DNA of 30,485 bases from a virus. The notes beneath the pieces are model-generated. The model was not told the origin of the DNA. It saw only the letters and a program-made list of their open reading frames with translations, and ran no database searches. Of this stretch, positions 4,806 to 30,485 are shown piece by piece. The DNA lies in IMG/VR virus record IMGVR_UViG_3300031746_000113, positions 1 to 30,485 of that record. The stretch is one strand, 5' to 3'. The first letter of the stretch is position 1. Every line of letters begins with the position of its first letter. Made by a program: the position numbers and the translations under genes.

Positions 4806-5777
4806 ATGCCATTTCCAAACGAGCATGCATGCCGAATGAGAGACCCGGATGATTTCAAGCCGGATTCATTCCGCCGCACTTCGCGCGAACATGAGGGCAA
4901 GCGGTACGACGTGATTATGGGGAAACTCAAGGACGGCGACGATTCGATGGTCGAGCAGACCTACCGCTACCCGAAGGATATCTGGGATACAGACGACGCC
5001 CGGCGTCATTGCAAATCTCATCATGGGATTTCATTCGAGCCGGCTTCTGAGGAGAATGCGGCGCCTGCAATAATCGAGAAGCATTTCCATGCGGATATCA
5101 AGAAGAAATCCGAGCAGGACGGACATCTCATCATCGAGGGATGGGCCTCGACGAAAGCGGTCGATCGCGCGGATGAGGTAGTCGAGCCGGAGGCGTTCAC
5201 GAACGGAATCGCCGCATACCTCGATAACCCGATCCTTCGCTACCAGCATGCGCCGGGCGCGATCGGCAAAACGCTCTCCGCAACGATCGATCCCGTTGGC
5301 GGATTCTGGATCAAGGCGATGCTCTCGAAGGCGAAGGACGTCGAGGATATCGTAACGAAGATCAAGGAAGGCATCCTCAAAGCATTCTCCATCGGCTTCC
5401 GCCCGATCGGGAAACCGGATATCATCGATGGCATCTCACATTGGAAAGCCCTCGAGCTTTACGAAGTCTCGATTGTTGATATCCCCTGCAACCGAGAATG
5501 CCTGTTCTCCGTCGCGAAGGGAATGCAATACGGGAATGATATCGTCGTGCCGGAGAATGAGCTCACGCGCGACGTTGAGATTTTGAAAACCAAAATAGCC
5601 GCGCTACCTGCCAACCTACAACCCGACGGGAAGGTCGCTCCCGTGATAATCCCCGCGCCGGTTCCCGAGGAAAAGTACAAGGAATTCTTCGCGGAACTTG
5701 AGCGAATCAAAAAGACAGATATCGATGAGATCGTCGAAAGCACGAGAGCATTTATGCGGACGATCTCGAAAGGCTGA
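4806..5777 (+). CDS. Prohead maturation protease, HK97/S78 type
   Basis: This Ser protease cleaves the scaffold or delta domain during capsid maturation. Residues about 1-80 form an N-terminal module rich in basic and acidic residues with a DDFKPDSFRR...YRYPKDIW pattern, seen in other phage proteases of this type. The catalytic domain spans about 95-240: IEGWAST, the His in LRYQH (His148), the Ser in KAFSIGF (Ser195) and the LYEVSIVDIP segment (Glu220), all as in Peptidase_S78. The remaining 85 residues are charged and partly helical and could serve as a built-in scaffold. The gene sits between portal and capsid genes in the canonical HK97 order. The start ATG is three bases after the portal stop. 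Confidence 0.93.
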   Translation: MPFPNEHACRMRDPDDFKPDSFRRTSREHEGKRYDVIMGKLKDGDDSMVEQTYRYPKDIWDTDDARRHCKSHHGISFEPASEENAAPAIIEKHFHADIKKKSEQDGHLIIEGWASTKAVDRADEVVEPEAFTNGIAAYLDNPILRYQHAPGAIGKTLSATIDPVGGFWIKAMLSKAKDVEDIVTKIKEGILKAFSIGFRPIGKPDIIDGISHWKALELYEVSIVDIPCNRECLFSVAKGMQYGNDIVVPENELTRDVEILKTKIAALPANLQPDGKVAPVIIPAPVPEEKYKEFFAELERIKKTDIDEIVESTRAFMRTISKG

Positions 5778-5784
5778 TTGAAAC

Positions 5785-7260
5785 ATGGCCGACGAAATCA
5801 AAATCCCGGTCGAATTCCTGACCGAGACGAAACAGGCAATGGGCCAACTCAAAAGCGAACTCGATGCACTGAAGAAAGGCCAAATCACAGACGAAGCTTT
5901 CATGGCGAAGGGAACGCAACTCGTCGAGACGATGCTCGCGGAGCACGACAAGAAGACGGTCGCGGAGGCCGAAAGACGGGCGATTTTCCCGACGGCGAAC
6001 ATCGACGGCGATCCCCGCGCATTCGCACTCAAGGCCGCGTTCATGGAAAGGAACTCCGAAGATCGGATGGCCAAGATATCGCAGGCGTTCAAGATGCCGA
6101 CGGATGTCAAGGCCCTCGAGCAGATCAAAGAGGCGCACGACAATCTGGCCATCGTACACGCCGGTATCGCGGCGCGATATCCCGGCAGTTATCGCGGAGT
6201 CGAGAGTCTTCGGGCGTACCAACGTTTCGTGGAACTCCGCGATCGGGTCTCGAAGTACATGGATCTGACCGATACCGCGAACTGGGTTCCCACCGGCGAG
6301 AGTGCGATGCTTCTTGAGGTTCCCGATCTGACCGGAGCGGTGGAGAATCTCTTCGAGCATGTGACGATGCCGACGAGCCCGTACAACTACCCGGTGAAGC
6401 TCAACGGGCCGACTTCACTCGGCTACCACGTCGATGAGGCCACCGCACATGTTAACCCGACGACCGATCCGGGCGCGCAAGCGCTCACGGACGGGTTGTT
6501 CACTTGGACGGCGCGCAAGGTTCGTGGCCGTTGCGTAATGAGCGGCGAAATCAACGAGGATGCGATCATCGCGATGGTCCCGGCGATCAAGCAGGAACTC
6601 GCGCAGGTCACGGCCCGTTCCGTCGAGACGTGCGACATCAACGGCGATCGCACTGGCTACGCGGGGACGCACATGGACTACGACGTGTCGGTGCTAGATG
6701 CGGCCCTCACCGCGCCGAACCACGACCCGCGCGTCATGTGGGATGGTCTTCGTCATGGCGGGATGCATGCGAGCCTCTACGTTGCGCTCACGACTTGGGC
6801 GCTCGCGACTCTGCGCTCAATGCGTGGCAAACTCGGCGCATACGGCGTGAACCCGCTCGAACTCGCGTGGCTCTTCACGATCAAGGATTATCTCCGGTAT
6901 ATCGTGACGAACGACGATGTTCGGACGCAGAACGTCTACGGCCCGCGCGCGACGGTCTTCACAGGCCAACTCGAGCAACTCGATGGTTCGCCGATTATCG
7001 TTTCACCGCACATGCCGACGAACCTGCACACGACCGGTTACAACGTGACCGGCCAGGCGAACACCGCCGGGTGTGCCCTACTCGTGAACAAGAAGTACTG
7101 GAAGCATGGCGATCGACGCCTGTTCACGATCGAGGCGGAACGGATTCTCGACAGCGATCAGCTCAAATTCGTCTCGTTCCGGCGTCTCGACTTCCAGCCT
7201 TTCCAGGCACCAGACGGAACCTATTCGAGTGTTTCGTGCGGATACAATATCGTCGCCTAG
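5785..7260 (+). CDS. Major capsid protein, HK97 fold with delta domain
   Basis: This is the main shell subunit. The 491 residues begin with a charged coiled-coil-like region (about 1-130) that acts as the scaffolding delta domain in this family and is expected to be removed by the upstream protease. The core includes DTANWVPTGESAMLLEVPDLTGAV (N-arm/E-loop area), the TSLGYHVDE...ALTDGLFTWTARKVRGRCVMSGEINEDA segment, a spine-helix region with MVPAIKQEL, and a P-domain end with KKYWKHGDRRLFTIEAERI. The ...TARK..GR..MSGEI.EDA pattern is typical of HK97 capsids. It follows the protease by seven bases with only a weak ribosome site. A strong hairpin follows it. Confidence 0.93.
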   Translation: MADEIKIPVEFLTETKQAMGQLKSELDALKKGQITDEAFMAKGTQLVETMLAEHDKKTVAEAERRAIFPTANIDGDPRAFALKAAFMERNSEDRMAKISQAFKMPTDVKALEQIKEAHDNLAIVHAGIAARYPGSYRGVESLRAYQRFVELRDRVSKYMDLTDTANWVPTGESAMLLEVPDLTGAVENLFEHVTMPTSPYNYPVKLNGPTSLGYHVDEATAHVNPTTDPGAQALTDGLFTWTARKVRGRCVMSGEINEDAIIAMVPAIKQELAQVTARSVETCDINGDRTGYAGTHMDYDVSVLDAALTAPNHDPRVMWDGLRHGGMHASLYVALTTWALATLRSMRGKLGAYGVNPLELAWLFTIKDYLRYIVTNDDVRTQNVYGPRATVFTGQLEQLDGSPIIVSPHMPTNLHTTGYNVTGQANTAGCALLVNKKYWKHGDRRLFTIEAERILDSDQLKFVSFRRLDFQPFQAPDGTYSSVSCGYNIVA

Positions 7261-7283
7261 TCGGCGCGATGAGGCATTAACAA

Positions 7284-7310
7284 TCCGGGGCCGGCCGACC
7301 CGGCCCCGGA
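7284..7310 (+). terminator. Strong GC hairpin after major capsid gene (no U-tract)
   Basis: TCCGGGGCCGG (7284-7294) pairs perfectly with CCGGCCCCGGA (7300-7310), an 11-bp stem with a 5-base loop, 23 bases after the capsid stop. It is followed by ATAAAAAGGG rather than a run of T. It may therefore stabilise the 3' end of capsid mRNA or reduce read-through rather than terminate efficiently. The structure is certain from the bases; its function is inferred. Confidence 0.6.
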
Positions 7311-7327
7311 ATAAAAAGGGGACGCGG

Positions 7328-7504
7328 ATGTACAGGTTTAAAAGAGATTTCTGGGGGTTCAAGGCCGGCAGCGTTGTCCCTGAGAAAATAGCGGCGATCC
7401 TCGAAGCCGAACAACCAGAGGTCATGGAGAAGATCGAGATCGAGGAGAAGGCAACAAGTTCTCCGAAAGACAAGATGATTGGGAAGAGTCCGAAAGACAA
7501 GTGA
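7328..7504 (+). CDS. Small charged protein downstream of capsid
   Basis: ATG 7328 follows an AAAAGGGGA ribosome site at good spacing, giving a 58-residue product; longer frames upstream run through the capsid gene and hairpin and are not credible. The N-terminus (MYRFKRDFWGFKAGSVVPEKIAAILEA) looks folded, with a short beta-turn and helix. The rest is acidic then lysine-rich and ends with two SPKDK copies. No membrane segment is present. The first half resembles short phage proteins often found near connector or tail genes, but the family is not recognised. The next gene starts 13 bases later behind its own GGAG. Confidence 0.72.
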   Translation: MYRFKRDFWGFKAGSVVPEKIAAILEAEQPEVMEKIEIEEKATSSPKDKMIGKSPKDK

Positions 7505-7516
7505 AGGAGTGACGAA

Positions 7517-7963
7517 ATGAAAAAGCTCTTACTCGCGATGCTCTTCGCGGCGGTGCTCGTAGCGGCGGCATCGCCCGTTGGAGCTCAGGTTTCGATGACG
7601 TTTCTCTCGTACTATGGCTCGCAGGTGGACGCACTCAATGCACTCATCAATCGCGCGCTCGATTCGCCGCCGTATACGAAGGGGCATTCATACACGTCGA
7701 CGAGCGGAACGATCATCACGCTGACATTCGCTACCGCCGAATCGAAAGTCGGCTATTACTGCTGGACGTACATAATGTATCCGGCTGGCGCGGGTCAGAC
7801 GGGAACGATCACCGTAGTCAAGACTCTCGGGGGTGTGACCCTCGAATCGCTCACGATCAGTCCAGGGGCTACGATAGCTGACTTCGTGGCGTGCGATCAG
7901 ATTCAACTCGGGAAGACCGTCGCGACGGATGTCGTTTATTACGGAGGGTTCTACAACCGGTGA
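7517..7963 (+). CDS. Secreted hypothetical protein with signal peptide
   Basis: The product is 148 residues with a textbook Sec signal: MKK, a hydrophobic core (LLLAMLFAAVLVAAA) and a probable signal peptidase I site after VGA (residue 23, before Gln). The mature part is about 125 residues, mostly beta-prone and Ser/Thr/Gly/Tyr-rich, with two cysteines, suggesting a small beta-sandwich acting outside the cytoplasm. AAGGAG precedes the ATG. Its stop overlaps the GTG start of the next, also exported, protein, so the two are probably made together. An exported protein between capsid and connector genes is unexpected for virion assembly in the cytoplasm. I do not recognise a family. Confidence 0.82.
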   Translation: MKKLLLAMLFAAVLVAAASPVGAQVSMTFLSYYGSQVDALNALINRALDSPPYTKGHSYTSTSGTIITLTFATAESKVGYYCWTYIMYPAGAGQTGTITVVKTLGGVTLESLTISPGATIADFVACDQIQLGKTVATDVVYYGGFYNR

Positions 7964-10900
7964 GAAAAGTCATCTGCGTTTTCGCTCTTATTTTCGCTCT
8001 CGGCTTTGGCCTTCGATCAATCGAATCGATTGCCGAAGGGCCGTATGCAGACAGTCTGTATATCGTCAAGCCGGAAGCCGACTCGCTCCATTGGGGATCG
8101 AAGACGATCGGAGCGGCTGCGGTTGTGCGGACCGTGCGGCTGTTGAATCACTGTCCGGATTCTCTCATTGGAATCGTATATTCGAGTAACCCATGCTACA
8201 AACTTAACGGTACGGCAAAGGACACCCTACAATACATCATCCCGGATACGACCGGAGTGTTTCAATTCACCGTTCGATTCATCCCGACCGGGCGCGGAAC
8301 GATAGACGCTTGGCTATATTTCTCCGATCCATTCGATTCGGTTGCATTGTACGGAAGCGGAACGGGCGGGATGACCCCGAGACCGTTCGGTACGTCGCTG
8401 TACGGGGAGGCGCCGTTCAATACGGTCGCTCAACCGCTGAACGCATATGGTCAAGCGCAGGACGTGAATACGAACGGAATTTATTCGATCATCCTGAATC
8501 CCGGTGCGTCGATGCTCGACATCAGCGCCGGATGTCTTCGCGCCTCATTCGATTCGATCCACGTTGACGCCGATACGACGACCGCCGTCTTCACGGCATA
8601 TGCAGACAGTGTATGCGCGCAATCGGTTTCTTGGAACGTTTCCGGCAATTCCTATGTTCATGCGACGACAGCGAGTGGATTGCCAGTAAATACGTTAATC
8701 CCTGTCCGGGTTCGGATCTGTCGCACAAATGACCTTTCGTGTTGCCGTGATACGACGATATCATTCACGACCGGATGCGGCGCTCTCTCTTCTCCGATTG
8801 ATTTCGAGCTCGAGCAGGCGCCCGACAGCGGGTTCATCGCATATTGGGATTCGCGCACGCCGACAACTGACGAACTTCGCTATTATGACGCCGGTCTCGA
8901 TACCGGATGGGTCTACGGATGGATTCCACACTTCCCCGCATTGTCCCATGCCGTTCATGTCGCGATTCGACTTGCTCCATCGACTACCTATTATGTCTCT
9001 GCCGATGGGTATGATGATTGTGGCTATCACAAGGGTTGGTGCGATAGCCTCGAGTTCACGACCGGCGTCGATACCGGGATTGTCGAATGCCCGACGCTCG
9101 TCAACAAGAGCGGGATCTCGACAGAGCACATTTCATCTGACAGCGAGCAACTTTTCCTCACGACCGATAAGATGGTCTGCGTCGGCTGGCGCTATGCAGA
9201 ACTCGGAAGCGTCGAATGGCTCTATGCCTACAACGAATATTATTACACCGGCGAATGCATGGAACTCGAAGGTTGTCCGGCGCTTCAGCATACGATCACG
9301 CTCGAAGATTTGCTCCCGAACAACATCGGCTATCGTTGGGAGACGAATTACAAGTACGAGTTCTGCGACACGACGGCATATGCCGATGCCGACACGTTCT
9401 ATACGGACTGCATGACCGCGGAGACGGGATCGTGGAATGATTGCCAGGTTTCAGCGAGCGCCGTCTATCTCTACTGTGCGACGCTCGTTGACGCGCACGT
9501 CGGCTTCCGATACAAGGAACCGAACGATGTTTCTTGGACGTACCTCTGGGACGCCGATGCGGATTCGACCGGGCATACCAAGCTGGCGACTGGTCTCGCG
9601 AGCGGCGACTCGACGCTCTACATCTGCAATACCGCGGTGATTTACGGCGCGTGCGATACGACAGAGTGGGGGCACGATCACGAGTTTTGGAGCGGATGTC
9701 CGACGATCGTCAATTCCAACTTCGCTTCGCAGACGCTTCAGGCCGATTCCGCTACGTTCCATTTCCATACGAGCATGCCTTGCAAGGCGCTCTATCGGTA
9801 TGATTTCGGCTTCCCTCCCGATGGATGGGAATACATCGCTGACGCCGATGCAGACTCGATGCAGCACACGAAACTCGTGACCGGGCTGACATATCCCTCG
9901 GGCGGGTATATGTGGCAGGTACGCACGCTCTATGCCGGGTGCGATTCGTCGGCCTGGGGGAATCAGCAGACATTCTTCACCGGCTGCCCGACTCTCGCTT
10001 TCACCGCGAAGGCAACGCAGGCCGTCACAGATTCGAGCGCGATTATCCATCGGCATCTGAACCAAGCGGCGCACATCGACTACCGCTACGGCGGGGAGAA
10101 CGACGAATTTTGGACTTACCATTACGACACAGAAGCCGATTCGACGCAGCGCACGGACACTCTCAGTGGCCTTGACAGCTCGACCGATTACACTTGGGAA
10201 TCCCGGTATCGTTCATTCGAGGGTTGCGATACGACGGCTTGGGGAGACTCGGCTCACTTCACGACGTTGAGTTCTTGTCCGACCGTTACGAAGAGTCTCA
10301 TCGCATCCCAGGCGATCACCACGGGCGGCGCGACGCTTCACTTCCATACGAGCGACGCAGTTCACGCGGGCTTCCGGTATCACGTCACGGGAAACAACAC
10401 CTGGTATTACCGCCACGATGCGGACGCGGACAGCGTTCAGCATACGATTTCCATTTCGGGTCTCTCGCCCGCGATCGTTCACGTCTGGGAATCGAATACG
10501 AAGTACACGGGCTGCGATTCCACTTCCTATGCGGATTCGACGCAGTTCACGACGGCATGCCCGACGATTACGCAGAGCGACTTCGCCGTTCAGGCAATTT
10601 CGACCACGACTGCGACGTTCCACTTCCACACGGACTACGCAACGCACGGCGGGTATCGGTACGGACTCTATGCCGCGGCAAACACGTACCGACACGATGC
10701 GGACGCGGATTCGCTACAGCATACGATCGGCGTCACCGGACTCACGGCGAACCACACCCGTTACAAGGTGCTGTTCAACAACAAGTATACCGGTTGCGAT
10801 TCGAGCGGCGCGCACGCCAATCAACTCGACTGGTACACGACCTGCACGGCGATTACGGCTAGTGGTGTTGATGTTTGCTCCTCAAATGAGGGGGCCGGGC

Positions 10901-11169
10901 CTGATAATACATTCACGGTCTTTGCTTCCCGTGCGGGCCAGGCATACATGCACTATCGAAAAGGGACGGGAACCTATTCAGCGAATGTGGACATGGGAAC
11001 GAGCGCTACGCATGTAGTGAACGTCGATAAGAGCAACTTCAGTTCCGGTTCATGGAACTGGGAATGGTGGTATATCGACGAGTGCGGGAATACGTCAGGG
11101 ATGCAGACGGGAACCACATTCAACTGTCTTACCGGCGGTCTGTGTGACCAAGCCTGCCCCGGAGGATAA
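7960..11169 (+). CDS. Large secreted repeat protein: HYDIN/ASH-like domain plus cysteine-paired Fn3-like modules
   Basis: The start is GTG 7960, overlapping the upstream TGA, with ACGGAGGG at 7941-7948; this gives 1,069 residues. Residues 1-25 form a Sec signal peptide (hydrophobic IFALGFGL, probable cleavage after SIA). Residues about 40-136 match the ASH/HYDIN 'choice-of-anchor D' pattern: LHWGSKTIG, then VRFIPTGRGTIDAWLYFSD and VALYGSGTGG. From about residue 195 the protein is a chain of Fn3-like beta modules. The last six are regular, about 95 residues each, beginning with CP(T) and containing DADADS.QHT, a GL turn and a GCD.T/S loop. The C-terminus is cysteine-rich. The design suggests a long, disulphide-stabilised surface or periplasmic adhesin-like rod. 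Function is unknown; a virion decoration role is possible but conflicts with the signal peptide. Confidence 0.85.
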   Translation: MRKVICVFALIFALGFGLRSIESIAEGPYADSLYIVKPEADSLHWGSKTIGAAAVVRTVRLLNHCPDSLIGIVYSSNPCYKLNGTAKDTLQYIIPDTTGVFQFTVRFIPTGRGTIDAWLYFSDPFDSVALYGSGTGGMTPRPFGTSLYGEAPFNTVAQPLNAYGQAQDVNTNGIYSIILNPGASMLDISAGCLRASFDSIHVDADTTTAVFTAYADSVCAQSVSWNVSGNSYVHATTASGLPVNTLIPVRVRICRTNDLSCCRDTTISFTTGCGALSSPIDFELEQAPDSGFIAYWDSRTPTTDELRYYDAGLDTGWVYGWIPHFPALSHAVHVAIRLAPSTTYYVSADGYDDCGYHKGWCDSLEFTTGVDTGIVECPTLVNKSGISTEHISSDSEQLFLTTDKMVCVGWRYAELGSVEWLYAYNEYYYTGECMELEGCPALQHTITLEDLLPNNIGYRWETNYKYEFCDTTAYADADTFYTDCMTAETGSWNDCQVSASAVYLYCATLVDAHVGFRYKEPNDVSWTYLWDADADSTGHTKLATGLASGDSTLYICNTAVIYGACDTTEWGHDHEFWSGCPTIVNSNFASQTLQADSATFHFHTSMPCKALYRYDFGFPPDGWEYIADADADSMQHTKLVTGLTYPSGGYMWQVRTLYAGCDSSAWGNQQTFFTGCPTLAFTAKATQAVTDSSAIIHRHLNQAAHIDYRYGGENDEFWTYHYDTEADSTQRTDTLSGLDSSTDYTWESRYRSFEGCDTTAWGDSAHFTTLSSCPTVTKSLIASQAITTGGATLHFHTSDAVHAGFRYHVTGNNTWYYRHDADADSVQHTISISGLSPAIVHVWESNTKYTGCDSTSYADSTQFTTACPTITQSDFAVQAISTTTATFHFHTDYATHGGYRYGLYAAANTYRHDADADSLQHTIGVTGLTANHTRYKVLFNNKYTGCDSSGAHANQLDWYTTCTAITASGVDVCSSNEGAGPDNTFTVFASRAGQAYMHYRKGTGTYSANVDMGTSATHVVNVDKSNFSSGSWNWEWWYIDECGNTSGMQTGTTFNCLTGGLCDQACPGG
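9088..10842 (+). repeat. Six tandem ~95-residue cysteine-paired modules
   Basis: Units begin at the codon for Cys at 9088, 9409, 9697, 9985, 10276 and 10558 and end at 10842, giving lengths of 107, 96, 96, 97, 94 and 95 codons. Each has an opening cysteine, usually in CPT(I/L/V), a mid-unit acidic DADADS-type turn followed by QHT, a (S/T)GL turn, and a second conserved Cys in (G/A)CD. One opening and one late cysteine per unit fits a disulphide within each unit or between neighbours. The repeats are diverged at DNA level, so the array is old rather than a recent expansion. Confidence 0.85.
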
Positions 11170-11171
11170 TG

Positions 11172-11696
11172 ATGGCACAACAGGCGACGGTGACAATTGA
11201 GACGGCCTTTCAGATTGATCTGGAGGTTCCGAATCGTATGTCAAGACGAGTGACACTTGAAAAAGCGGCGCAGTACATTCTGATTCTCGCGGCACTCCAG
11301 ACCGTGAGTATCTTCGGGTGCGCGCGACAGACCGCAGAGGTGCATACGTTGAAGCCGGAGGAGATCCCGGAGACGATCACTTATTACGATTATGAAGTCG
11401 CGACGGTTACTGGAGTCCCAGGGTTATGCCCCCAATTCACCTGGAAATCGAGTTACACGGTTCGATGTTCTTTCACGTGGCGTGTTGCCGGAGGTTCATG
11501 GGCAACCCCGCACGATTACGACCCGGACTATCGCCCCCTGACGTTCGATCATATCGCGGAGATCGATGGTACCTGGGATGACGAGCTTACATATGAATTC
11601 AAAGTGATCGGAATGGACATAAACGGCAATTACCATTACGGAGATCCAATACCCTTTATCTGGGATGGAGTTGTCTTCTCCATCGTGGAGGATTGA
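11172..11696 (+). CDS. Membrane-anchored or lipoprotein-like protein with two possible starts
   Basis: ATG 11172 follows GGAGG (11161-11165) by six bases and gives 174 residues. A second in-frame ATG at 11238 has its own GGAGG (11222-11226) and gives a product starting MSRRVTLEK. That shorter form looks like an export signal: basic n-region, hydrophobic AAQYILILAALQTVSIFG, then Cys28, a possible but non-ideal lipobox (IFGC). From the first start the same segment would be an internal transmembrane helix (about residues 34-49). The downstream domain is rich in Trp, Tyr and Asp (WRVAGGSW, HYDPDYRPLTFDH-like, DDELTYEFKVIGMDINGNYHYG) and resembles a single Fn3-like beta-sandwich. It directly follows the large secreted protein and likely belongs to the same exported module. 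No family is assigned. Confidence 0.78.
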   Translation: MAQQATVTIETAFQIDLEVPNRMSRRVTLEKAAQYILILAALQTVSIFGCARQTAEVHTLKPEEIPETITYYDYEVATVTGVPGLCPQFTWKSSYTVRCSFTWRVAGGSWATPHDYDPDYRPLTFDHIAEIDGTWDDELTYEFKVIGMDINGNYHYGDPIPFIWDGVVFSIVED

Positions 11697-11697
11697 A

Positions 11698-12036
11698 ATG
11701 TCGAGAGTCAAGAATTTTACGATCCGCGCAGGTGATTACGGGCAAGAACTCGATTTCTACGTCATCGACGAGGACGGGGCAATCTATACGATCCCCGAGG
11801 CGGCTACCTGCACGTTCGAAGTGCGCGAGGACGGAGAACTGGTCGATCTATTCCTCTCCGATACCGCGCACGTCACGGTAGCCGATGCTCCTGGCGGGCA
11901 ACTTCGATACACGGTGCAGAACGGCGATTTCGATGCGGCAGACGCTGGTGCCTATTGGTGCCGCATGCACGTGAACACGATCACCACGAGCGAAGTCGCG
12001 CTGACGGTTCAAGAGGATCAAACGGTTCCCGCATAG
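11698..12036 (+). CDS. Ig-like / BppU-N-like small structural protein
   Basis: ATG 11698 is six bases after GGAGG (11687-11691); longer starts overlap the previous gene. The 112-residue product is one beta-sandwich: FTIRAGDYGQELDFYVIDEDGAIY, then CTFEVREDGELV, and an Ig-like DAADAGAYWCRMHV near the end followed by a final strand. The 'DxDG ... G.Y.C.(V)' pattern is like the N-terminal domain of phage baseplate upper proteins and related small virion Ig domains. Its place just before the head-tail connector suggests a head or neck decoration protein. There is no signal peptide, unlike the three genes before it. Confidence 0.75.
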   Translation: MSRVKNFTIRAGDYGQELDFYVIDEDGAIYTIPEAATCTFEVREDGELVDLFLSDTAHVTVADAPGGQLRYTVQNGDFDAADAGAYWCRMHVNTITTSEVALTVQEDQTVPA

Positions 12037-12044
12037 GAGGAGAG

Positions 12045-12620
12045 ATGCCGCTTTCAGCATACGCCATTCTGAATCTCGACGAGGCGAAGCGTGCGGTTCA
12101 GACCGGGGCGAACTTCCAGGAGGAAGAAGACCTCATCACGTATATCAACGGCGTGAGCGAGCTCATTGAAGGTCTTTGCGGCGAGAACTTCCTGGCGCGC
12201 CCCTATACCGAGACGTTCGATGGCGACGGGACCAACAAGCACCGCGTGCGCCATACGCCGATCCTATCGGGCACGGGCCTCGAGTACGCGATCATCGCCG
12301 GTGAAGGGCATACCGCAACACCGACGGCGGACATTCTTGTAAACGCGGAACAGGGACTTTTCTACCTTGAGGCCGACGTTTTCGAGGAAGGGTTCCAGAA
12401 CTGCTCGATTCACTATCACGCCGGGTTGACGGCGGTCCCCCAGGCGGTGAAGGCCGCCGCCGGTATCATGCTCGCGAAGTTTTGGAAGATGCGCGACAAG
12501 TCGCTCGAACAGGCGTCGAGCATAACCGTCGAGGGCCAGACGGTGACGTTCAAACCGGAGGCGATACCGGGCGAAGCAATCGCGTTTCTCTCTCGCTATC
12601 GTCGCCCGAGGTTCGCATGA
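12045..12620 (+). CDS. Head-tail connector (gp6/gp15-like adaptor)
   Basis: This protein forms the ring under the portal that joins head to tail. The 191-residue product begins after an AGGAGGAG ribosome site with an N-terminal helical bundle (LDEAKRAVQTG...EEDLITYINGVSELIEGLCG), an insertion with short beta strands including YTETFDGDGTNKHRVRHTPI, then helices VPQAVKAAAGIMLAKFWKMRDKSLEQ. The 'long helix pair plus middle beta insert plus P..(V/I)K.A...' layout is typical of HK97 gp6-like connectors. The stop overlaps the next start (ATGA). Confidence 0.87.
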   Translation: MPLSAYAILNLDEAKRAVQTGANFQEEEDLITYINGVSELIEGLCGENFLARPYTETFDGDGTNKHRVRHTPILSGTGLEYAIIAGEGHTATPTADILVNAEQGLFYLEADVFEEGFQNCSIHYHAGLTAVPQAVKAAAGIMLAKFWKMRDKSLEQASSITVEGQTVTFKPEAIPGEAIAFLSRYRRPRFA

Positions 12621-21849: not shown

Positions 21850-22134
21850 ATGGAACTCGTAGGATGGTATGAACTCATCCTGGTTGCAATCCAGGTCGGG
21901 TATTCGTGGTGCCTGAAGCATTTCACGGCGCTCAATTCGAAGTGGCTCCCGCTCATAAACTTCGGCGTCGCGTTCCTGACGATCACGGTAGTGACCATGC
22001 AGGCCGGGCAATCGTTCCAGGTGGCGATAGTCCAGGGTCTCTACAAGGGACTGTTGACCGCGATAGCTTCGACAGGCGTTCATTCCGCGGCGAAGAACAC
22101 GGCGGAAGCGTTCGTTCCCACTACCCCGGCATAG
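21850..22134 (+). CDS. Holin, putative
   Basis: The 94-residue protein has an AGGAGG ribosome site and two to three hydrophobic segments: ELILVAIQVGYSWCL, WLPLINFGVAFLTITVVTM and a weaker FQVAIVQGLYKGLLTAIAST, with a short polar C-terminus. Size, topology and placement directly after the endolysin fit a phage holin that permeabilises the inner membrane at the end of infection. The GLLTAIASTGVHSAAKN ending resembles several phage holin families (LLH-like). Exact family unresolved. Confidence 0.8.
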   Translation: MELVGWYELILVAIQVGYSWCLKHFTALNSKWLPLINFGVAFLTITVVTMQAGQSFQVAIVQGLYKGLLTAIASTGVHSAAKNTAEAFVPTTPA

Positions 22135-23248: not shown

Positions 23249-23466
23249 CTATCGAAAAGTATATTCATCATGGCGTCGAGGTTTTAGTTCGCAAGGACTT
23301 AAAAGGTAGGCATGCCGAGCATTGTTTATGCTGGTATCCCTGTGCCAGATTCAAACCCAATGAAACCGATAATTGTTCAATCGCACAGGCGCTCTTTGAA
23401 TTCGATAAGGCGCATCAGGTAACAACGCCCATATGGGAATGCGCCGTTTTCGAGGAAACCACATGA
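23245..23466 (+). CDS. Small cysteine-containing hypothetical protein
   Basis: ATG 23245 is eight bases after AGGAGG (23231-23236) and begins within the preceding stop region. The 73-residue product contains HCLCWYPCARFKP, a later NCSIAQALFEFDKAH and an ending WECAVFEE. This 'CxC...C..F.P....NC..A..L......P...C..F' arrangement is a recurrent small phage zinc-protein pattern of unknown function. The stop overlaps the metallophosphoesterase ATG, suggesting the two are co-translated. Confidence 0.72.
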   Translation: MTIEKYIHHGVEVLVRKDLKGRHAEHCLCWYPCARFKPNETDNCSIAQALFEFDKAHQVTTPIWECAVFEETT

Positions 23467-24305
23467 GACTCCTCACCGCGCTCATTCCCTCGAACTGCGA
23501 GATTGCGATGCACGGATGCACCCATGAGGGGAACATGCAGACTTGCGATAGCGGGATGGAACAAACCTTCGAGTGGATAATGGCGGGACGAAATCGACGG
23601 TTCATCTTCACCGGCGATGCTATCGAGGCAATCACGACGGATGACAAACGGTATCAGCATGACACGACATACGACCCGATACCGATGCGGCAACTCGCAC
23701 GGCTGGTTGAACGATACAGACCTATCCAGAAGCGTGGTCTTGCATGGCTTGCGGGAAATCACGAGTTCAAACTCCAGCGATTCGGCGATCTCGGAGCGGA
23801 AATGGCCGAACGTCTCGACATCCCCTATGGCGGGTGTGCGGCGAAACTGCTCTTGAAGGATAAACGCGGACCGATAGCGAAGGTCTACCTCTGCCATCCT
23901 AATCGTTTTCAGTTGCGCAGCGGGGCGAAGGATTATGAACAGAGGGTTGCGAACATGAAGGCACAGGTGAAACGGTTTCTGACGGACAAAGCGGGGGACT
24001 GTGTTGTGATGGCCGCCGCGAATGCTCATAAACTACTCATCGTTGACCCGTCGCCGAAACTGGTCATCTTCGATGAGGGTGGCAAACTGAAACAGGACTA
24101 CCTTGTCGGGGATAACTCGATGCCTCGATACATTGACCCGGATCGTCGTTGGTATGCGAGCATCGGAAGTTACCTCCGCACAATGATACTTGGACACGAC
24201 GGGTACGCGGAGCGTGCAGGCTATGACCCCGTGGAACTCGGGTTTGCCGTCGTGGAGATTCGAGACAGAAAGGTCGTCGCGGTCAAGCGGATGGTGGTGG
24301 ATTGA
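23463..24305 (+). CDS. Calcineurin-like metallophosphoesterase
   Basis: This 280-residue protein belongs to the metallophosphoesterase superfamily. Visible motifs are FIFTGDAIEAI (GD, about 51-52), LAWLAGNHEFKL (GNHE, about 98-101), CHPN (histidine motif IV) and AAANAHKL (the GHxH-like motif). The C-terminal YASIGSYLRTM...YAERAGYDPVELGFAVVEI fits phage members of this family. The first motif reads HGCTHEG where D-x-H is usual, so the metal-binding Asp appears replaced by Cys. Possible roles include nuclease or phosphatase activity on nucleic acid. Placed after the late genes and before the att region, it could be an accessory gene. Confidence 0.85.
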   Translation: MRLLTALIPSNCEIAMHGCTHEGNMQTCDSGMEQTFEWIMAGRNRRFIFTGDAIEAITTDDKRYQHDTTYDPIPMRQLARLVERYRPIQKRGLAWLAGNHEFKLQRFGDLGAEMAERLDIPYGGCAAKLLLKDKRGPIAKVYLCHPNRFQLRSGAKDYEQRVANMKAQVKRFLTDKAGDCVVMAAANAHKLLIVDPSPKLVIFDEGGKLKQDYLVGDNSMPRYIDPDRRWYASIGSYLRTMILGHDGYAERAGYDPVELGFAVVEIRDRKVVAVKRMVVD

Positions 24306-27924: not shown

Positions 27925-29265
27925 ATGGAAGCAATTCGCAAGGTCAAGACGGTGATGGAGACGCTTGATGAATTCAAGCAAAGGTATCCTCGGGAGCGTT
28001 TCATTTACGTGAACGCCCCATTGGAGACCGCTGGACCGTGGCCGGAGCACTACGGCCTTGGCGCTCGGGTGTTCCGTGTTCCTACCGAGAATCTCAAGGG
28101 AACGCCGGCGATGAACGGGTGGATCTACGAGCTTCACGGCCTCTACGCACTCTCGAAGCCCTCGAAACTCCAGATCATGCATGACGCCGGGGTCATTTTC
28201 TCGCGTGAGAAAATGCACCGTGTAGACGATGGATCAGACCCGGATGTTTGCGAGCTCGAAGGAGCGGCGGCAATTCTTAGTCTCTCAGGGCTCGCGACTG
28301 TCACCGGCACGAAGCGCATCGATAGAAAGATCACCCCGAAGGTGTCGCGCGAATTCCTCGTCGAGAACTGCGAGACGAAACTTGAACTCCGCCTCGGATG
28401 GAAACTCGTCGGGCTCCCGCAAGCCTTCACGCTCGAAGAGCTCAAGGCGAAAGAGTTCGTGACATTCTGCGTGTTCTCGGCACCCCACGCGGCGAATCCC
28501 GAGGAGCGCATGCTCATTCTCAGGCATCATCTCGGCATCTGGGGACCCGCCTTTGGAGACGCCCGGCCTATCGAGATCGGAACCGTTGAGGCGCCGCGAC
28601 AGATCGAAGGAGCGCGCCAGCCGATTCAGGAAGCCGAGGAAGTTCAGAACGACGACGACGACCCTGATCCCGCGGATCAGCAACCGAGCCCGGGCGGAGA
28701 GGTAGGAGCCGCACAGCCTCCTTCGCTTCCCCTAGGCGAATCGCCTCCGCCGCCCGGCTCGTCAAAACCCACAGCGGAGAAGATCGACTTCCTACAGGCG
28801 GTGCGCCCGCTGAAAGACGAGCTCCTGAACCTCCTCGGCCCGCTCAACGGCTCCGAGGAATACTACAAACTCATGCTCGCGACAACCGGCTGCCAGCACG
28901 CGAATGAGATCCCCGCCGGGGAGAAGCGGGGCACGTTCTTCCGCAAGCTCGAGCGCATGGTGAAACTCCTCAAGGAGAACCCGAAGGTGCAGGAGCCGGT
29001 GAAACCGTTCCAGGAGGCGCTCGAGATGGCGCGTCAGGGTTATGCGAAGCTCTCAATCGAGAAACTCGTCGAGCGCATCGAGGCGCAGATGGAACTTCAG
29101 CACTACCCGACGGATCAAGACCCGCTCGAAATCGTCGCGGTGCTCCAGGAGGGTGACAAGGCGAAGTGCGTTGATGCGGCGGTACGGCTCATGGAACGGG
29201 GTCTCATCGAAACGACAAAGATGCGCGAGCAAAAGCAAGCGGACCCGAGAGGGGGCGCGCGGTGA
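27925..29265 (+). CDS. Unknown early protein, possible single-strand annealing/recombination factor
   Basis: ATG 27925 follows AAGGGGG closely; the open frame also allows a TTG at 27910. The 446-residue protein has three parts. Residues about 20-225 include LSKPSKLQIMHDAGVIFSREKMHRVDDGSDPDVCELEGAAAILSLSG and LATVTGTKRIDRK, a pattern found in unassigned phage proteins near recombination genes. Residues 235-285 are an acidic, Pro-rich linker (QNDDDDPDPADQQPSP, GESPPPPGSS). Residues 286-446 are helical, with GSEEYYKLMLATTGCQHANEIP, which recalls C-terminal segments of phage annealing proteins. The adjacent SbcD-like nuclease gene supports a recombination role, but I cannot assign a family. Confidence 0.75.
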   Translation: MEAIRKVKTVMETLDEFKQRYPRERFIYVNAPLETAGPWPEHYGLGARVFRVPTENLKGTPAMNGWIYELHGLYALSKPSKLQIMHDAGVIFSREKMHRVDDGSDPDVCELEGAAAILSLSGLATVTGTKRIDRKITPKVSREFLVENCETKLELRLGWKLVGLPQAFTLEELKAKEFVTFCVFSAPHAANPEERMLILRHHLGIWGPAFGDARPIEIGTVEAPRQIEGARQPIQEAEEVQNDDDDPDPADQQPSPGGEVGAAQPPSLPLGESPPPPGSSKPTAEKIDFLQAVRPLKDELLNLLGPLNGSEEYYKLMLATTGCQHANEIPAGEKRGTFFRKLERMVKLLKENPKVQEPVKPFQEALEMARQGYAKLSIEKLVERIEAQMELQHYPTDQDPLEIVAVLQEGDKAKCVDAAVRLMERGLIETTKMREQKQADPRGGAR

Positions 29266-30485
29266 TGAGACTCATCATCTTCTCAGACCTCGAACTCACC
29301 CGCGACCGTCTCGCGATTGCCGAGCCGATTCTCAAAGAACTTTTCTCGCACGTGCGGCTGGGCGATAAGGTCGTCTTTACCGGCGACATGTGGCGCGAGT
29401 ATAACGCGGTAACGGAGAGATTCGCAAAAAAAATCCTCGCAGCAAATCTGGAGGACGCGTGGTTCCTCGTCGGCAATCACGATCGAGAGATCGGCACCGA
29501 TCGCCTCAGCGCGGCATTCGATATGTCGTCCGTATTTGATGTACCAGACGCATTCGAGAAGAACGGCGTCTGGTTCGCCTTCCTCCCGGCCCCGGATCGC
29601 GCCGCCTTCGGCACCTCTCGCCGTCCCGAAGGACGCAAGGCTCGCGATGCCGCCCTATCCGAAGCCCTCGAAGCGGCGCTCATCTCCCTCGAAATCCAGA
29701 TCGGCCCGGAGAATCTCGGGCGCGCAATTCTGTTCTTCCACGGTGCGGTATCGGGCGAAGAGGTTGCGCCGGGGCAAATCGCCGCCGGTCTCACTTGGTC
29801 GATACCCGCCGCGCGCCTCTCACGTTGGGGCCTCGCGATCGGCGGGCACATTCACAAGCCGGGGCAGAGCGCCCCGAACGTCTACAGCGTCGGTGGAATC
29901 GCCAACTGGACCTTCTCCGACCGAGCCGAGCAATTCCGCGCGCTGGTAGTTGAGATCGAGGATCATTGGTCTGGGCTATCAATGACGGGGCCTTTCAAGG
30001 TCTCCGAGATTCCGCTCCTGCGCGTGCTCGTGCCGATAGAACTTACGCTTGATGAGGAAGGATTGCATGGCGGCGGCGGTGAGGAAATAAAGGCCTATGA
30101 TATTGGGGCAATCATGGGCGTTCTTGAAGGATGTGGCGTCAATCTCGCCACCGACACCATCTCCCTCAAGATCAAGGCCCGTCTCCCTCAGCACGAAATG
30201 GCGATGGTGCCCAAGGCCGAAGATCTGCAGAAGGCAATCAACGATCTCGTCGAGAGGTCGCTCATCCAGACCTGCATCATCACCCGCGAAGTAACGGGGC
30301 TCCATAAGGCCCGGCTCACGACCGAGCAGAGCGCACGCGAAATGACACTCCCGCAAATACTCGACCTCTACGTCGAGACGACGGGGAACGGCACGGCGCC
30401 AGAGACGGTAGTGGCCGCGAAGGACCGCATCGACCGCATCGCTGACTACTACAAGCCGGGAGCAGGGACGTTCGGCTTCGAACCG
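29265..30485 (+). CDS. SbcD/Mre11-like nuclease (3' end outside window)
   Basis: The ATG at 29265 overlaps the previous stop, and the frame is open to the last base (407 codons visible, no stop). Metallophosphoesterase motifs are visible: IIFSDLE (motif I), VVFTGDMW (Asp41), FLVGNHDRE (70-73), FFHG (His159) and GGHIHKPG (His195, His197). Motif I carries Glu10 where D-x-H is normal. The arrangement and the long C-terminal part point to SbcD/Mre11-type nucleases, which process DNA ends with an ATPase partner; an SbcC-like gene would be expected just downstream but is outside the window. Confidence 0.86.
   Translation, partial: MRLIIFSDLELTRDRLAIAEPILKELFSHVRLGDKVVFTGDMWREYNAVTERFAKKILAANLEDAWFLVGNHDREIGTDRLSAAFDMSSVFDVPDAFEKNGVWFAFLPAPDRAAFGTSRRPEGRKARDAALSEALEAALISLEIQIGPENLGRAILFFHGAVSGEEVAPGQIAAGLTWSIPAARLSRWGLAIGGHIHKPGQSAPNVYSVGGIANWTFSDRAEQFRALVVEIEDHWSGLSMTGPFKVSEIPLLRVLVPIELTLDEEGLHGGGGEEIKAYDIGAIMGVLEGCGVNLATDTISLKIKARLPQHEMAMVPKAEDLQKAINDLVERSLIQTCIITREVTGLHKARLTTEQSAREMTLPQILDLYVETTGNGTAPETVVAAKDRIDRIADYYKPGAGTFGFEP

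Follow-up and report, generated by a model that had tools for sequence, protein, structure and literature searches.

Here, we report that the interval between the major capsid gene and the head-tail connector gene of a tailed-phage fragment encodes two putative exported proteins, SP1 and SP2, and probably a third one, SP3. The best explanation, to which we give a probability of about 45%, is that SP1 and SP2 (probably also SP3) are late phage proteins which the host Sec pathway exports for display in or on the cell envelope, and are not parts of the capsid assembled in the cytoplasm. An earlier note on this DNA had proposed a co-expressed secretion module at this place. What the analysis supports is an exported pair, or possibly three proteins, translated together in the head operon, with FN3 repeats, no tie to the capsid, and a position that recurs in other phages; the envelope location, the late expression and the function of SP1-SP3 are what we infer beyond this.

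The genes between capsid and connector

The window, i.e., the whole stretch of 30,485 nucleotides that was analysed, is a linear 30-kb IMG/VR virus fragment with a typical siphovirus gene order on the + strand: small and large terminase, a portal fused to a Mu-F-like part, an S78 protease, the capsid gene and the block, followed on the 3' side by connector, neck, tail tube, tape measure, tail genes and holin. Past the tail and lysis genes, two calcineurin-like phosphoesterases, one of them SbcD-like, are encoded at 29262-30485 and 23433-24305. The products of phage head genes are expected to be cytoplasmic. The capsid-connector interval holds five genes (7328-7504, SP1, SP2, SP3 and 11698-12036), listed here with their borders and two genes of the lysis region:

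5785-7260, +: HK97-type major capsid protein, bounding the block upstream; PF05065 E 3.7e-4, under cutoff
7328-7504, +: small gene, 58 aa, between the capsid gene and SP1; 53% identity to relatives
7517-7963, +: SP1, 148 aa; Sec signal peptide by sequence pattern, beta-rich mature part
7960-11169, +: SP2, 1069 aa; Sec signal peptide followed by beta domains and seven tandem FN3-like repeats
9088-11127, +: the seven tandem FN3-like repeats of SP2, ~95 residues each, from alignments
11169/11172-11696, +: SP3, 174/175 aa (152 aa from ATG 11238); hydrophobic segment, possible lipobox IFGC, ribosome-binding sites
11698-12036, +: small beta protein; weak BppU_N / LtfC similarity, E 0.005-0.015, under cutoff
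about 12045-12620, +: head-tail connector/adaptor, downstream border; phrog_442 E 7e-20, PF24163 E 4e-5
21850-22134: holin, PF16079
22152-22598, +: SP4, putative fourth exported protein, adjoining the holin; signal peptide and outer-membrane beta-barrel-like C-terminus ...GLFSLGVSF

The coordinates and reading frames that had been given for the three proteins are correct, and the flanks that had been named, a capsid gene and a head-tail connector, are borne out by a weak PF05065 match, together with distant tblastn matches that carry a capsid protein annotation, and by phrog_442, respectively. The 11698-12036 protein has no signal peptide.

SP1 starts at ATG 7517 downstream of AAGGAG, and its N-terminus reads MKKLLLAMLFAAVLVAAASPVGA up to the predicted cleavage site, with Q following; the cleavage motif before this Q is VGA in the window and LRA in the relatives. 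SP2 starts at GTG 7960, within a GTGA that overlaps the SP1 stop, and has the N-terminus MRKVICVFALIFALGFGLRSIESIA. The earlier note had read both N-termini as Sec signal peptides, and this reading holds: N-terminal K/R, an uncharged hydrophobic core and small residues at -3/-1 are found in SP1 and SP2 of three phages, i.e., the signals are canonical and are kept in two related IMG/VR contigs (all signal-peptide calls here are heuristic, from sequence). SP1 belongs to no family in Pfam, PHROG or NCBIfam, and its AlphaFold model was kept out of the fold search because of its pLDDT of 39. A PDB profile search with SP1 returned antibody light chains (best E 3e-4, a 'YYC'-type motif), which we take as chance matches since the profile was built from three near-identical sequences.

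In SP2, six of the repeats (9088-10842) have two conserved Cys each and the seventh (10843-11127) is the most divergent; the protein ends with an FN3-like repeat followed by a short tail rich in Cys. Structure prediction had been proposed for the proteins, and for SP2 it gave an FN3 fold: when one repeat was modelled with AF2 from those in the window and in its relatives, the pLDDT was 88, and almost all of the 50 PDB matches listed by Foldseek are FN3 domains or FN3-derived monobodies, with E about 2e-4 and TM up to 0.8 among these matches. Viral matches of the repeat include FN3 proteins from uncultured Caudovirales; no match to a Pfam family is significant. The predicted repeat is a seven-stranded beta sandwich of about 90-100 residues, like solved FN3 domains. 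SP2 has 36 Cys residues (3.4%, vs 1.0% across the remaining cluster genes; Fisher p 5e-8), and disulfide-type FN3 repeats are typical of extracytoplasmic proteins; the Cys content and the FN3 repeats together thus fit folding outside the cytoplasm. Judging from the model, SP2 is probably a beads-on-a-string protein of disulfide-type FN3 repeats, the disulfides being putative. SP2 has no match in ten bacterial genomes with terminase relatives, which therefore offer no host-derived source for it.

As for the third protein, which had been described as having a hydrophobic export or anchor segment, the segment and a possible lipobox are present, and the export signal is plausible, not certain. The first starts (ATGATG, 11169/11172) lie after GGAGG, with the hydrophobic stretch beginning only from about residue 35, and an alternative ATG at 11238 with GGAGG 11 nt upstream would give MSRRVTLEKAAQYILILAALQTVSIFGC, which resembles a lipoprotein signal. 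Compared with the lipobox [LVI][ASTVI][GAS]C, IFGC has an unusual F at -2, and it needs either the start at 11238 or a long n-region. It is plausible from this pattern that the export signal fits best with the start at 11238 and that SP3 is a third exported protein. No relative of SP3 was detected, and a profile comparison with the FN3 repeats found no similarity.

Close relatives and the capsid gene

The close relatives are two IMG/VR contigs, L002 and L003/L005, whose terminase and portal are 93-97% identical to those of the window; a portal-alignment scan of viral contigs, in which patterns were poor, returned only these two. SP1 is 88% and 82% identical in them, and SP2 comes next, its GTG again overlapping the end of SP1 in L002 and L005/L003. 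The GTGA junction of SP1 and SP2 given in the earlier note is confirmed. The N-terminus of SP2 in the relatives stays hydrophobic and positively started while its sequence drifts. Of the trio that had been suggested to occur together in other phages, SP1 and SP2 are found in these two relatives, whose contigs both end inside SP2, and SP3 has no detected relative. Among 50,697 cultured-phage records, there is no relative of SP1, SP2, SP3 or SP4.

The capsid protein of L002/L005 is only 37% identical to that of the window, and DNA similarity to the relatives (blastn segments) resumes at 7430, inside the small gene 7328-7504 and just 5' of SP1. Given a capsid identity of 37% and an SP1 identity of 82-88%, the capsid gene was seemingly exchanged and SP1-SP2 was not, i.e., SP1 and SP2 do not track the capsid. 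At about 5672-7429 of the window, the protease C-terminus and the capsid gene look replaced relative to L002/L005. SP1 differs from its L002 counterpart by 37 synonymous and 1 nonsynonymous differences in codons 50-148, and its -3/-1 residues are conserved in type across the three phages although codons 25-49 of the mature part diverge. This substitution pattern argues for strong purifying selection on SP1, independent of the capsid. A separate observation is that the first 60 nt of SP1 (7517-7576; L002 5575; L003 10001), which encode signal peptide, are identical DNA in the three phages, even though 37 of the 99 later codons differ synonymously and codons 21-49 are diverged. It may be due to recent exchange or to a translation-start constraint; a mobile element was rejected as the source, as the first 30 bases are, among viral contigs, confined to the two relatives.

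The number of domains in SP2 varies: L005 has an extra N-terminal domain and is without some of the repeats. At L005 11681-13528, the N-terminal beta domain is duplicated and the FN3 repeat composition is unlike that of the window. From these sequences, SP2 appears to be a surface-type protein that undergoes quick modular change, or domain shuffling, behind a maintained signal peptide.

The post-capsid slot in distant phages

A terminase scan collected 80 viral contigs and 15 bacterial loci, and nearly all of the viral contigs are less closely related than L002 and L003/L005 (mostly 32-39% identity, one 51%). Proteins with a signal peptide, TM anchor or lipobox cluster just 3' of the capsid gene in L014, L018, L024, L027, L028/29, L063 (two proteins) and L089; L072 has two such proteins several genes later, and the slot protein of L054 was read by eye. 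Capsid assignments are confirmed by PHROGs for eight slot loci. Briefly, enrichment was tested with one representative per 90% terminase cluster, the capsid being located by profile and the N-termini being judged by a simple signal/anchor criterion. A signal/anchor gene is found in the first three post-capsid positions in 8/29 dereplicated terminase clusters, a proportion biased upward because the capsid profiles were seeded partly from loci with known slot proteins; this bias matters less when positions are compared within loci. By position, signal/anchor N-termini occur in 9/87 genes in the first three post-capsid positions vs 3/280 elsewhere downstream of the terminase (p 2e-4, with kinship among loci ignored), the latter comprising 0/132 genes between terminase and capsid and 3/148 later genes. 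A similar signal criterion also passes 3/65 spurious minus-strand ORFs. With single-linkage TerL clusters, the p value is 0.004 at 90% and 0.15-0.20 at 60% or 50%, and the capsid-anchored enrichment is reported instead because the 60% and 50% clusters are too few. Several slot proteins are mutually homologous, so the independent origins are perhaps four or five. A search with an L063 protein led to a bacterial genome of class Anaerolineae (the class is taken from the centre genome of the search, Ornatilinea), in which a TM-anchored fibre-like protein comes after Phage_capsid (E 4e-69) and before Phage_connect_1.

The slot proteins of the TerL relatives (L014, L018, L024, L027, L028, L054, L063, L072, L089 and L100) are like the block in their signal peptide, TM anchor or lipobox N-terminus, in a beta-rich or fibre-like mature part and in the post-capsid position of their genes, but they mostly look like shaft-plus-knob fibres, unlike the FN3 string of the window, and have no detectable sequence homology to SP1. 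Sequence search links them into L063/L054/L028/L100, L027/L018 and L024/L072, beside the window clade; L014 and L089 are aligned with the fibre-like group, without a link by search. Two relatives' slot proteins carry perfect lipoboxes, IAAC and LSAC, and those of L018 and L027 have a phage depolymerase C-terminal domain (PF25692), a domain usual in virion fibres. No homology between SP1 and either the fibre-like or the L024/L072 family is detectable by profile comparison, so the function need not be common to all. A PHROG family was found for 0/10 slot proteins scanned, an NCBIfam match for 0/6 scanned and a cultured-phage match for 0/4 searched by tblastn.

Two minor observations concern the neighbourhood of these genes. 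L063 has tandem paralogues (11482-12439) with near-identical mature N-termini, one behind a TM/signal N-terminus and the other behind the LSAC lipobox, which look like two export routes for the same fibre-like protein. A protein of ~170 aa adjoins the fibre-like slot gene in L063 (10964-11485), L027 (8757-9278) and L018 (17976-18479), with the common motifs YIRLHG... and then V-GACH / LEGCHG / LEGCYG; this companion is conserved and by eye looks like a caspase/CHAT-type fold, and it has no Pfam family.

The slot of the window thus does not appear to be unique, i.e., exported or anchored, often fibre-like proteins seem to recur after the capsid gene in phages of uncultivated bacteria. This recurrence points to an overlooked surface function in such phages, whose bacteria include the Anaerolineae-class genome and a Desulforudis MAG, and the slot gives a positional rule for finding more proteins of this kind. 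Many tailed phages of uncultivated bacteria may even reserve the capsid-connector slot for an exported or anchored fibre that is co-produced with the heads, either for surface display or for a virion fibre that matures outside the cytoplasm and is picked up by the heads; we regard this general reading as tentative and somewhat doubtful. If true, it could be a general surface-display system undescribed in the open-access literature. In the case of extracytoplasmic maturation, virion fibres would gain disulfides outside the cytoplasm and be joined to the heads at release, and the slot allows one to ask directly if parts of the virion are able to mature there.

A proposed surface display and its alternatives

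In the reading we prefer, which is also the most economical, SP1 and SP2 are translated within the head operon, as gene order and the GTGA overlap show, and their signal peptides, seen as sequence patterns, would lead each of them to the host Sec pathway. Once outside the cytoplasm, SP2 would form a chain of disulfide-type FN3 domains, with SP3 as a putative lipid-anchored partner of the pair, and late in infection the three proteins would alter the cell surface of the host, whether infected or lysogenic. By covering the receptor that the phage itself uses, for example, they could keep progeny from adsorbing again to the cell or to its debris, and could shut out second phages. By analogy, receptor masking is the best-precedented job for a surface module made together with heads. 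In T5 and BF23, the exported lipoprotein Llp blocks the receptor of the phage and is believed to let fewer progeny be lost on debris; in related phages, Llp proteins of unrelated sequence also block the receptor (PMC4728585). Like the block in this reading, Llp is a phage-encoded exported or lipid-anchored protein of the infected cell with its gene beside a virion gene (PMC4728585); unlike the block, llp has the gene for the receptor-binding protein as its neighbour, and its expression is described as early, whereas SP2 is a 1069-aa FN3 protein encoded beside the capsid. The likeness is by description, and no family match links SP1-SP3 to Llp.

The main alternative, which is rather unlikely, is that the proteins are head fibres or decoration of the virion. 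SP2 would then sit on the capsid as a Hoc-like string, with SP1 as its base, and the hydrophobic N-termini either would not act as export signals or would take the proteins out of the cell, where they would fold, gain disulfides and bind to heads set free by lysis. The gene location directly 3' of the capsid gene, the beads-on-a-string build with a domain number that varies between close relatives, as in Hoc, and the shaft-and-knob shape and PF25692 in other slot proteins all favour this, but canonical signal peptides and lipoboxes speak against it, the capsid protein was replaced without change in SP1, and Cys-rich repeats are poorly suited to a reducing cytoplasm. The signal peptides, the lipoboxes and the indifference of SP1 to the capsid swap count against simple decoration within the cytoplasm; heads may nevertheless acquire the proteins after lysis. 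The Hoc of T4 type is an acidic Ig-domain string with N-terminal Ig domains and a C-terminal capsid-binding domain, and that of phage Muldoon is a 1174-aa protein with ten Ig domains (PMC10385173). SP2 shares with Hoc and other Ig-domain decoration proteins (T4, Muldoon, T5 pb10) an acidic Ig/FN3-type string, a variable domain number and the phage origin; no signal peptide is mentioned for Hoc (PMC10385173), whereas SP2 combines a signal peptide with paired cysteines and an FN3-like end, and it has no Hoc family match in Pfam or PHROGs.

Lysogenic-conversion cargo (a moron), i.e., adhesins with which the lysogen binds surfaces or cells and which have no lytic role, is unlikely. Secreted FN3 proteins rich in repeats are typical bacterial adhesins, SP3 has the lowest GC (0.52) among the head-tail cluster genes that were measured, and the phage also encodes the OMP-like SP4. 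Independently transcribed morons have their own promoter and terminator; in contrast, SP1 and SP2 are tightly coupled in translation by their GTGA overlap, and consensus scans of the block gave 5 promoter-like sites vs 3.9 expected and 2 terminator-like sites vs 3.9 expected, i.e., neither above chance. Recurrent use of the slot in distant phages also tells against a moron, as does the absence of an integrase from the 30-kb linear fragment. It is very improbable that SP1-SP3 are envelope or lysis helpers, i.e., exported proteins acting on the host wall or outer membrane for release: they lie in a presumed late operon and lambda Lom co-transfers with the holin, but the phage has its own lysis region 10 kb away, with the holin at 21850, and SP1-SP3 are without an enzymatic domain.

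Lambda Lom, which lies in the late operon and is strongly expressed in lytic growth (PMC9836094), sets an example of a surface protein made from a late operon. It resembles the block, as do Bor and other morons, in being an exported phage protein that alters the host surface; the difference is that Lom and Bor are an outer-membrane barrel or a small lipoprotein encoded at other genome positions. SP4 has no family, PDB or cultured-phage match. From its sequence features it appears to be Lom-like in kind and a better Lom-like candidate than SP1-SP3, and it suggests a diderm host.
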